Positions 6,569 to 13,609 of a stretch of 33,993 nt of DNA are shown here, piece by piece. Each line of letters starts with the position of its first letter. Position 1 is the first letter of the stretch. The stretch is from Clostridiales bacterium (GTDB lineage Bacteria > Bacillota > Clostridia > Oscillospirales > Oscillospiraceae). The notes under the pieces were generated by a model that did not search any database, was not told where the DNA came from, and was given only the letters and a program-made list of their open reading frames with translations. The stretch covers positions 1-33,993 of the forward strand of contig JAJBVG010000081.1 in the NCBI GenBank assembly GCA_020859945.1, read 5' to 3'. The position numbers were made by a program, and so were the translations under genes.

Positions 6569-7432
6569 TCACGTAGAGGACCAGCGGCCCGTGGCCCCGC
6601 AGGGCAGCGCCAGGCCGGAGGCCGTCACCGGCAGCCCCAGCTCCTGGGATTCCGTGTGGCCGCCGTAGCGCTTGCCCACCAGCGTCTCCAGCAGGTAGGT
6701 CAGCACCGAGGGGGCCAGGCCGGTTGTGTAGGAGTTGAGGATGATAAACAGCGGCCTGTCGCTGAGAACCTGCACCGCCAGCTCCAGGAAGGGATAGAGG
6801 TCGTCCTCCAGCTTCCACACCTCGCCGGAGGGTCCCCGGCCATAGGAGGGCGGGTCCATGATGATGGCGTCGTATTTTCTGCCCCGGCGAATTTCCCGCT
6901 CCAGGAACTTGCCGCAGTCGTCCACGATCCAGCGGACGGGGGCTTTCTCCAGCCCGGAGAGGCGGGCGTTGTCCCTGGCCCAGGACACCATACCCTTTGC
7001 CGCGTCCACATGGCAGACGCTGGCTCCCGCCGCAGCGCAGGCCACGGTTGCTCCGCCGGTGTAGGCAAAGAGGTTCAGCACGTTGACGGGCCGCCCGGCG
7101 GCGCGGATCTGCTGCTGGGCGAAGTCCCAGTTGGCGGCCTGCTCCGGGAAGAGGCCGGTGTGCTTGAAGTTCATGGGTCCCACCTGGAAGGTCAGGTCGC
7201 CATAGGTCACGGTCCAGCGCTGGGGCAGCTTCTCCCGCTCCCAGTGTCCGCCGCCGGTCTTGCTGCGGCGATAGCGTCCGTCCGGGTGCTTCCAGCCCCG
7301 GTGGGTGCGGGGGGTGTCCCAGATGGCCTGAGGGTCGGGCCGCACCAGCAGCTTGTCCCCCCAGCGCTCCAGCTTTTCGCCCCTGCTACAGTCCAGCAGC
7401 TCATAATCGTTCCAGCGATTTGCGATCCACAT
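6569..7432 (-). CDS. Class I SAM-dependent rRNA methyltransferase, RlmI/RlmK-like
   Basis: 287 aa. The Rossmann methyltransferase core has the SAM motif NLFAYTGGAT (120-129), an acidic ribose-binding residue in VCHVDAAKG (D143), and the catalytic-type DPPSYGRG (193-200). These belong to the family that methylates 23S rRNA cytosine C5 or guanine N7 (RlmI/RlmKL type). The PUA domain of E. coli RlmI is not visible; the first 100 residues instead form a strand-rich lead with KHTGLFPEQ, seen in short Firmicutes members. The substrate base cannot be fixed from sequence. The ATG at 7432 has GGAG ten bases upstream. It heads the ecf-truA run; its promoter region abuts the 254-bp element at 7469-7722. 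Confidence 0.8.
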   Translation of the reverse strand: MWIANRWNDYELLDCSRGEKLERWGDKLLVRPDPQAIWDTPRTHRGWKHPDGRYRRSKTGGGHWEREKLPQRWTVTYGDLTFQVGPMNFKHTGLFPEQAANWDFAQQQIRAAGRPVNVLNLFAYTGGATVACAAAGASVCHVDAAKGMVSWARDNARLSGLEKAPVRWIVDDCGKFLEREIRRGRKYDAIIMDPPSYGRGPSGEVWKLEDDLYPFLELAVQVLSDRPLFIILNSYTTGLAPSVLTYLLETLVGKRYGGHTESQELGLPVTASGLALPCGATGRWSST

Positions 7433-7461: not shown

Positions 7462-7468
7462 TAACATA
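7462..7468. repeat. 7-bp direct repeat (target-site duplication) left of element A1
   Basis: TAACATA here and again at 7723-7729 exactly bracket the 254-bp element. Read on the minus strand it is TATGTTA, similar to a -10 box, 30 bp upstream of the methyltransferase start. Confidence 0.75.
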
Positions 7469-7722
7469 ATGCGTACTGAACAAAGCCATTAGCATTGAAA
7501 GGCAAGACCTTTCATGTCTATCGGCTTTGTTCAAGTGCAAGGTTTTTTCGCAGACAAGCGAAAAAACCTTGCACCCTCCGTTGACACAGCAAGCTGTGCC
7601 AACGGAAATACGCATTGTGATAATGGCTGCTTTTCATAAAACCAGCGTAAAACTGCTGGTTTTATGAAATTGCGCGGCCTTCGCCGCGCCAATAAACCGC
7701 ACGGCGGTTATTCAGCAGACAT
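7469..7722 (-). mobile_element. MITE-like 254-bp hairpin-mosaic element, copy A1
   Basis: This is an exact-length counterpart (254 bp, about 20 differences) of the copy at 13142-13395, in opposite orientation. Its ends form imperfect inverted repeats (ATGTCTGCTGAATAA against ATGCGTACTGAACAA, 11 of 15 matching). Inside are consecutive stem-loops at 7477-7533 (with an inner hairpin), 7535-7574, 7578-7605, 7635-7666, 7672-7689 and 7691-7712. TAACATA flanks both sides. It has no coding capacity. The small size, terminal inverted repeats and target duplication are those of a non-autonomous transposon. The hairpin density resembles REP/BIME-type repeats, and structured RNA is possible. No transposase is present in the window. 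Confidence 0.8.
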
Positions 7723-7729
7723 TAACATA
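7723..7729. repeat. 7-bp direct repeat right of element A1
   Basis: TAACATA, the second copy of the duplication that flanks the element at 7469-7722. Confidence 0.75.
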
Positions 7730-7821
7730 GTATTTTACCATTGTTCCGGGGTTCCGTCAACAAAAAGCGGCCAAAATTCATGGAAATACGCTCGGAGACC
7801 GGACGGAGGTGTTCTTTTGGC

Positions 7822-13134: not shown

Positions 13135-13141
13135 TATAATA
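13135..13141. repeat. 7-bp direct repeat left of element A2
   Basis: TATAATA, repeated exactly at 13396-13402 on the other side of the 254-bp element; a target-site duplication. Confidence 0.75.
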
Positions 13142-13395
13142 ATGTCTGCTGAATAAACCGCCATGCGGTTTATTTGCGCGGCAAAGGCCGCGCAATTTCA
13201 TGAAACCAGCAGTTTTACGCTGGTTTCATGAAATGCAGCCATTGTTGCAATGCGTATTTCCGTTGACACAGCTCGCTGTGTCAACGGAGTGTGCAAGGTT
13301 TTTCGCTAATCTGCGAAAAAACCTTGCACTTGAACAAAGCCGACAGACATGAAAGGCCCTGCCTTTCAATGCTTATGGCTTTGTTCAGTACGCAT
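13142..13395 (+). mobile_element. MITE-like 254-bp hairpin-mosaic element, copy A2
   Basis: It runs from ATGTCTGCTGAATAA to TTCAGTACGCAT. Stem-loops lie at 13152-13174, 13176-13193, 13199-13230, 13240-13252, 13260-13287, 13291-13329 and 13331-13387 (with inner hairpin 13351-13367), together about 210 of 254 bases. In the third stem, CATGAAACC/GGTTTCATG here is CATAAAACC/GGTTTTATG in copy A1. That is a G-C to A-T exchange on both sides of the stem, so pairing has been kept. Its own TATAATA duplication differs from that of copy A1, so the two copies inserted separately. The gene-side duplication supplies the only good -10 box of the downstream riboswitch gene. Confidence 0.8.
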
Positions 13396-13401
13396 TATAA
13401 T
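13373..13401 (+). promoter_or_regulatory. Candidate promoter of the riboswitch-ATPase unit
   Basis: TATAAT at 13396-13401 is a perfect -10 and sits just before the riboswitch start. The -35 at 17 bp (TTATGG, 13373-13378) is poor and lies inside element A2. The promoter may have been altered by the insertion. Confidence 0.5.
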
Positions 13402-13402
13402 A
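13396..13402. repeat. 7-bp direct repeat right of element A2
   Basis: TATAATA, the second copy of the target duplication. It contains the TATAAT taken as the -10 box for the riboswitch-ATPase transcript. Confidence 0.75.
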
Positions 13403-13407
13403 AAATT

Positions 13408-13527
13408 CCCGTGAGGGAGTAGCAAGCGCATGTTTGCGTAGCAAGTCAACATACCCGTCCGATTTTCGGTCTGGCTTGTTTTAAATTGCGAGACTCATAT
13501 ACAGCTTCGAGTTGGCTGTATCTGAGC
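13408..13527 (+). promoter_or_regulatory. yybP-ykoY manganese riboswitch
   Basis: The leader contains the hallmark pieces of this class in order: GAGGGAGTAG (13413-13422), CCCGTC with an adjacent CGATTTTCGG hairpin (13454-13469), CTGGCTTG, and GCGAGACTC (13488-13496). This class senses Mn2+ and turns on manganese exporters and related membrane proteins. It precedes a P2-type cation ATPase, one of its known gene partners. The match was made by recognition, not by a covariance model. Confidence 0.88.
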
Positions 13528-13538
13528 CTTTTCTTTTT
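13494..13538 (+). terminator. Riboswitch expression-platform terminator
   Basis: CTCATATACAGC (13494-13505) pairs with GCTGTATCTGAG (13515-13526) with one mismatch, followed by a T-rich tract (TTTTCTTTTT). The 5' arm overlaps the conserved GAGACTC of the riboswitch. Mn2+-bound folding should therefore compete with the terminator and allow read-through. Confidence 0.7.
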
Positions 13539-13609
13539 CCCACGTGTCTCCCCGCGAACCATCACCCGTTTACCCACCCTTCATCCATCAAAAAGGAGGA
13601 CAAGAGCGT

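Follow-up and report, generated by a model that had tools for sequence, protein, structure and literature searches.

Two copies of a non-coding element in one contig

The window, by which we mean the whole stretch of 33,993 nucleotides analysed here (contig JAJBVG010000081.1 of a Clostridiales bacterium in the family Oscillospiraceae, assembly GCA_020859945.1), carries two copies of a 254-bp element on opposite strands: copy 1 at 7469-7722 (+) and copy 2 at 13142-13395 (-). In a sequence search of their own genome, the two align along the entire 254 bp at 92% identity. Each lies within its own perfect 7-bp direct repeat, to which no strand is assigned: TAACATA for copy 1 (7462-7468 and 7723-7729) and TATAATA for copy 2 (13135-13141 and 13396-13402), the left repeat of copy 2 being -10-like on the + strand in the extended form TGTTATAAT. 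The terminal repeats, ATGCGTACTGAACAA and ATGTCTGCTGAATAA, match as inverted repeats at 11 of 15 positions (ATGnnTnCTGAAyAA). An earlier note, made from the sequence alone, had reported near-identical copies of equal length and opposite orientation, each with its own perfect repeat and with inverted ends, and these features all held up. The element is non-coding; no open reading frame of at least 80 aa overlaps copy 1, and the one such frame that extends into copy 2 is of no known meaning.

By folding, copy 1 divides into a first domain, D1 (7469-7615, +), which is closed by a stem of ATGCGTA with TACGCAT (7469-7475 with 7609-7615) and contains three hairpins (7477-7533, 7535-7574 and 7577-7606); a strandless 7-bp spacer, TGTGATA (7616-7622), which in other copies most often reads TGTAACA; and a second domain, D2 (7623-7722, +), which is closed by a stem from its own two ends and contains three hairpins at about 7632-7669, 7672-7689 and 7691-7712. 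In copy 2, alignment places D2 at 13142-13242, the spacer at 13243-13249 and D1 at 13250-13395, all on the - strand.

Copy 1 adjoins the host promoter of a - strand gene (6569-7432) that, by eye, we take to encode a methyltransferase. Copy 2 lies upstream of a + strand gene that starts at 13544 or 13610 and presumably encodes a P-type ATPase, again by eye. The leader between copy 2 and this gene (13406-13538) recurs at 85% identity in another contig of the same genome (G000:C68) and in relatives, and resembles the yybP-ykoY manganese riboswitch, but its Rfam score is only 9.4 bits against a cut-off of 45. Elsewhere in the window, a tyrosine-recombinase-like protein (197-961, by eye) is encoded next to a tRNA-Thr(CGT) gene at 1096-1170, and the two perhaps mark the edge of an integrated element.

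Insertion with target duplication

The genome contains two further whole-length copies (241 and 247 bp), making four matched over their whole length, plus two partial ones. Matches also occur in 9 of the 32 genomes of the genus and in 40 of 400 genomes of the family, representing 21 of 106 genera, so the pair in the window is not a product of chance. A 19-base end, searched against named genomes, returned 100 stretches, of which 80 were taken for study; the titles of these loci name Flavonifractor, Pseudoflavonifractor, Intestinimonas and Galloscillospira, as well as bins labelled Oscillospiraceae, Clostridiales and Clostridia.

Among 60 copies, 57 could be tested for flanking repeats (a few orthologous insertions are counted twice), and a perfect 7-bp duplication was present in 35 and an imperfect one in 22; a further 26 of 37 additional insertions have a perfect duplication. 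The earlier note had named copies without flanking duplications as evidence against a transposon. The 22 imperfect cases point that way. The same note had asked whether the duplications might pre-exist the element. At the site of copy 1, four genomes of the same genus (G013, G018, G015 and G003) have the same flanks with no element and a single copy of the target, TAACATG or TAACACC; the duplication of copy 1 therefore does not pre-exist, and the transposon reading survived both checks. For copy 2, relatives were searched for a clean empty site and none was found; G003 retains there a remnant comprising one end and part of the hairpins. Short, non-coding and multi-copy, with terminal inverted repeats, duplication on insertion and an autonomous relative with similar ends (described below), the element is securely identified as a MITE, as the earlier note had proposed.

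Three other accounts were considered and rejected. D1 and D2 do not appear to be separately mobile, as strong matches to each are usually paired, by eye, in the 80 named loci; this fails where the end of a contig or locus truncates the copy and in a few loci, L185, L206 and L164 among them, whose D2 is weak or missing. Nor are L015, L024 and L158 tandem copies sharing one duplication, as their flanks hold a short end remnant at most and no second element. Finally, an integrated satellite or phage-borne element was rejected: the 19-base end has no exact match in the viral contigs searched, and the element is unmatched in plasmids and phages at blastn sensitivity.

Several partial forms were also encountered. 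Solo remnants, consisting of the outer D2 end with at most partial hairpins, occur twice in the window's own genome (G000:C5:27573 and G000:C39:95237) and at L090, L091, L092 and L098; several adjoin TATAATA-like letters, as if deletions strip the rest of the element yet spare one end. In other places, two ends face each other across about 55 to 198 bp (G003:C29:4323-4462, G019:C43:25977-26116, G298:C2:29902-30085, G154:C25:10341-10538 and G104:C6:40409-40463); these are probably shortened elements. At L025 (G018:C125), about 1.1 kb, in which a small membrane protein may be encoded, separates one element end from a damaged opposite end; this is perhaps captured cargo, in a locus whose ends and flanks are incomplete.

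A probable IS5-family partner in relatives

The full-length element with matching ends and a transposase that the earlier note had suggested seeking was found in an element-bearing relative (genome G184, locus L099). This complete insertion sequence reads TACGTTA, ATGATTACTGAACAATGG ... TTATTCAGGATACAT, TACGTTA, and its 477-aa transposase matches the NCBIfam IS5-family model NF033578 at 414.8 bits (cut-off 275) as well as Pfam DDE_Tnp_1_2 and DUF772. Two more complete copies, L120 and L121, sit within the 6-bp repeats TAAATA and TATATA, such that the duplications of the complete copies measure 6 bp as well as 7 bp. L121 has the terminal repeat ATGTCTACTGAACAA at both ends; 13 of 15 positions are common to it and the element at each end, and 2 of 15 differ.

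The likeness continues past the terminal repeat on one side. When D1 of L040 was compared with eight promoter ends of the insertion sequence, at most 1 of 300 shuffles was as good for seven of them (best z = 11.2), whereas none of three opposite ends reached that level. Homology is weaker for D1 of the window copy, which only three of the eight promoter ends match at this level (no more than 1 of 300 shuffles as good). D2 has no homology to the ends of the insertion sequence past the terminal repeat, the best comparison being equalled by 24 of 300 shuffles. These comparisons suggest that D1 derives from the promoter end of the insertion sequence. The element thus resembles IS5-family insertion sequences (NF033578) in its terminal repeats, its TAnn(n)TA duplications and its D1, and differs from them in having no transposase and in its D2, which lacks homology to their ends past the terminal repeat.

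In the partner insertion sequences at L119-L123, a hairpin of the GTGCAAGG...CCTTGCAC type lies directly before the transposase start. In IS10 and IS50, such a hairpin curbs translation of read-through transcripts, and the hairpin of the partner possibly limits their translation too. The second hairpin of D1 appears, from its sequence, to derive from it.

The transposase and the element are seldom found together. The transposase is present in 29 of 400 family genomes and is without a match in 34 of the 40 element-bearing ones; the two co-occur in only six genomes across two 400-genome searches, whose overlap was compiled by hand. The window's genome gave no transposase match, and its assembly of 97 contigs may lack repeats. 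Across the 32 genomes of the genus, no transposase was found except for one weak hit and fragments in G028, a bin with a contamination of 10%; the fragments belong to a broken copy and were set aside as a partner in favour of L099. With no transposase found in the window's genome, the mobiliser of its copies is absent, has died out or is a different one; an IS5-family partner is well supported by sequence in relatives and was not seen in this genome. Conceivably another recombinase moves the element and the IS5-family element merely has the same ends. The 34 genomes lacking a match would fit such a scheme, as would the variation of some duplications in their central three bases, for the coupling sequences of some tyrosine recombinases differ likewise. 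However, it would not account for the homology of D1 to the promoter end past the terminal repeat or for the similar TAnn(n)TA duplication, and we regard it as very unlikely.

A preference for -10-like sequence

Read on the promoter strand (52 of the 60 copies; six that were duplicated or misframed, and those whose right flank was short, were removed), the duplicated 7-mer is usually TATAATA, and many copies have a -35-like hexamer 16-18 nt upstream, across the element. Among 57 perfect TAnnnTA duplications, 36 (63%) have TTA or TAA at the centre, compared with 11% of the TAnnnTA sites that occur in the flanks (p = 8e-21). In the orientation of the element, 30 of the 57 read TATTATA and 6 read TATAATA (p = 7e-5). 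Copy 1 shows a variant of this arrangement. The host promoter that it adjoins, read from the sequence, has a -35-like TTGACG (7755-7760, -) 17 bp from a -10-like TAAAAT (7732-7737, -), both with the same letters in the empty sites. On the promoter strand the duplication reads TATGTTA and starts 2 bp past the downstream edge of the -10, close to where transcription is expected to begin.

The position of the insertions relative to genes follows the same pattern. Neighbouring genes were predicted with a rough codon-based finder, and its errors enter every count of gene orientation or distance given here. On the D1 side, 57 copies have a predicted gene; in 48 of them the nearest such gene is directed away from the element, and 36 of these 48 genes start within 95 nt. 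Two sets of insertions were then scored, with orientation (class A or B) assigned from the duplication sequence alone. Set 1 comprised 51 of the 60 copies (six duplicates or misframed copies and L065, L082 and L085, with irregular ends, were left out), three of which had flanks that were too short; set 2 comprised 37 independent insertions (56 found, 19 of them already in set 1), one of which was too short. In 38 of 48 insertions of set 1 and 29 of 36 of set 2, the first gene downstream is co-directional; its distance is below 100 nt in 32 and 23 of them, respectively, or 55 of 84 together. Both sets have higher -35 scores than their flanks do after shuffling (p = 9e-10 and 7e-9); the score exceeds 3 in 25% and 19% of insertions against 3% of shuffled flanks.

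Unoccupied sites with the same motif set the bounds of what can be concluded. Outside genes, 39 of 65 such sites lie less than 100 nt before a co-directional gene, against the 55 of 84 insertions, and they too have -35-like boxes (mean 0.37, with 16% above 3; the mean for insertions is 1.40). Because these sites resemble insertions in gene proximity and carry a -35 signal, we limit our claim to the -10-like sequence itself, the targeting of which is well supported as a sequence preference. A preferred orientation, with the D1 end toward the gene, is likewise evident from the sequences. A different origin for the pattern would be random insertion in AT-rich intergenic DNA followed by selection that removes all but the promoter copies. 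As 33 of 98 unoccupied motif sites fall inside genes, purifying selection could indeed shape the distribution. But selection of this kind would explain neither the excess of TATTATA/TATAATA among the perfect duplications relative to the flanks nor their 30:6 orientation bias, and we judge it distinctly unlikely.

Two closed domains around a fixed spacer

The earlier note had described the interior as a succession of hairpins. The hairpins are real, but they are grouped in two closed domains around a 7-bp spacer rather than strung in a plain row. Folded as a single DNA strand, copy 1 reaches -90.6 kcal/mol (z = -16.1), which none of 200 dinucleotide shuffles equalled, and its other strand folded as RNA gives z = -15.5. 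D1 (147 bp) and D2 (100 bp) each have their own closing stem and three hairpins. The domain plan, worked out partly on 42 copies, varies little in size: D1 measures 138-149 bp and D2 91-103 bp in 50 copies, and the spacer is exactly 7 bp in all 59 aligned copies (of 60, with L074 left out).

Covariation was assessed in 49 of the 60 copies, omitting nine near-duplicates, L074 and L085. Changes on both sides of a pair were seen in 34 of 56 D1 pairs (228 cells) and 22 of 36 D2 pairs (139 cells), or 56 of 92 overall. Pairing is retained in 94.1% of cells in D1 and 95.2% in D2, against 29-49% in slid control structures, and none of 500 shuffles reached any of five measures of fold conservation. One closing pair of D2 breaks in 26 of the 49 copies. 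The interior therefore consists of two closed foldback domains kept through compensatory change.

Such pairing need not reflect function. Template switching at quasi-palindromes copies one hairpin arm onto the other, and mutation of this type could maintain the hairpins by itself. The pairing is mostly Watson-Crick, with G.T equal to A.C (below), and certain hairpins of L079 and L081 are entirely new in sequence along each arm, as template switching would produce. A local process, however, would not be expected to keep the domain plan or the invariant spacer, and the closing stems are conserved although about 130 bp separate their arms in D1 and about 90 bp in D2. We therefore consider maintenance by mutation rather unlikely.

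The domain plan also recurs in four other bacterial families of the order, despite much changed sequence. Of 394 genomes of the order, a covariance model of D1 picks out 21, and seven of those belong to these four families rather than to the family of the window. One locus from each (L356, L359, L363 and L364) has the plan domain, 7 bp, domain, at identities to copy 1 of 0.68, 0.59, 0.56 and 0.55, against a mean of 0.49 for shuffled letters; the D2 model finds a match in two of them, L356 and L359, and D2 is visible through folding alone in L363 and L364. In two other distant loci, L358 and L360, D2 was sought and none was seen, and the 17 extra distant loci include several that are damaged, that run off a contig or in which D2 is not clear. 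By eye, several distant copies carry 6-bp repeats, for example TAATTA, TATTTA, TATATA and TACATA.

Conservation at the level of DNA or RNA

The element shows the compensatory base-pair conservation by which structured RNAs are recognized, and the earlier note had raised a functional RNA as one possibility for the interior. A functional RNA bears G-U better than A-C on its own strand. Among strand-neutral pairs of the element, predicted from both strands (49 elements, reduced to 23 by clustering at 85% identity), G.T occurs 23 times and A.C 27 times (p = 0.67). In RNase P from the same bacterial family, treated by the same procedure (23 of 30 sequences after omission of seven long ones, 18 after clustering), the counts are 44 and 19 (p = 0.002). 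The element and RNase P have similar ratios of intermediates to double changes (0.42 and 0.45, respectively). Folding the strands of the element separately gives G.T 56 against A.C 34 for the plus strand and, in its own letters, G.U 71 against A.C 23 for the minus strand; as the wrong-strand fold of RNase P gives 87 against 45, such one-strand counts lean toward whichever strand is folded. Because the strand-neutral pairs lack the G-U preference seen in RNase P, conservation at the DNA level is suggested, and this strand symmetry indicates, short of proof, that the fold is mainly a property of DNA. Thus the suggestion of a functional RNA is half borne out: the conserved fold is present, whereas the G-U bias of an RNA is absent from the strand-neutral pairs. 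The lean of the separate folds toward the minus strand, which class A insertions would transcribe, may nevertheless reflect some selection on RNA.

It has to be asked whether the element could act as a mobile RNA leader. In that case, after insertion into a -10 box, the minus strand would be transcribed at the 5' end of the host mRNA, its hairpins would shield or control that message, and the covariation would reflect selection on RNA. Insertion keeps the upstream promoter, most copies have one orientation relative to the gene, and the minus strand has both the stronger consensus fold, with lower energy than the plus strand, and more G.U, all of which such a leader would show. Yet the near-equality of G.T and A.C on two-strand pairs sets the element apart from RNase P, and 18 of 84 insertions are of class B with a co-directional gene, in which the other strand would be transcribed. 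In Rfam, no family reaches its gathering score over the element, where matches are sub-threshold only, and we rejected a known RNA family; the sole match at gathering score in the window is a tRNA. We consider the RNA leader unlikely.

Discussion

Correia and RUP elements are thought to be moved by IS transposases, and Correia, RUP and BOX elements have TA duplications, whereas the element described here duplicates 6-7 bp of a -10-like box. We know of no target duplication for REP/BIME sequences; with 254 bp and a 7-bp duplication, the element falls outside their definition. The accounts of Correia elements (PMC10969869) and of RUP and BOX elements (PMC3049150), in the portions that concern us, describe small repeats, many of them upstream of genes and with stem-loops, as in the element, and describe promoters carried inside Correia elements (PMC10969869). 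REP/BIME sequences are presented, in parts of two papers, as palindromic intergenic repeats, like the element, with palindromes of 20-40 bp (PMC3733652, PMC2817692). The closest likeness is to bacterial MITEs derived from insertion sequences, which the relevant sections of a review describe as short, non-coding, IS-mobilised and often near genes, with terminal repeats, target duplications and stem-loops (PMC10969869), all traits of the element. The MITEs in those sections differ from the element, in which a 7-bp spacer parts two closed domains, compensatory changes preserve the fold across families, and the target is mostly the -10 box itself; the MITE promoters discussed there are carried by the MITEs, rather than being their targets (PMC10969869). 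Among the papers listed in searches of the open-access literature, none describes the element, and its promoter targeting and two-domain plan go beyond an ordinary MITE.

We think it probable, from these sequence comparisons, that the element is a MITE moved in trans by an IS5-family transposase, inserting in -10 boxes and retaining its two-domain fold at the DNA level. In this model, the DDE transposase would recognise the terminal repeat of about 15 bp and mobilise the element, the D1 of which probably arose from the promoter end of the insertion sequence. Insertion, as the sequences show, occurs at TAnn(n)TA, mostly at TATAATA, the -10 box of a promoter, with a duplication of 7 bp, or 6 bp in some relatives. 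It leaves a -10-like box on each side and the upstream part of the host promoter in place; the host gene would then be transcribed from its original promoter through the element, which would become a hairpin-rich leader. The fold itself is most likely retained because, as a cruciform or in single-stranded DNA of the lagging strand, it would set the two ends about 7 bp apart and aid their pairing by the transposase. The spacer between D1 and D2 resembles a target duplication between adjoining units, each of which begins with ATG and ends with CAT; it is our guess that the two domains were once neighbours with one common duplication.

A broader version of this model is possible, though we advance it tentatively and doubt that it holds in full: the element may represent promoter-seeking mobile DNA found throughout the order, with a two-domain, six-hairpin shape selected as DNA, that spreads without silencing the genes it invades. 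Here, folding of one strand would juxtapose the ends, and insertion in the -10 or melted region would duplicate the -10 box.

MITEs are usually viewed as decaying scraps of insertion sequences. In the element described here, the architecture outlives much of the sequence across families, which makes the function of MITE interiors directly testable, and the usual target is the promoter core itself. If folding as DNA is what has been selected, then strand-symmetric covariation could reveal other DNA-structure elements that searches for RNA have mislabelled.
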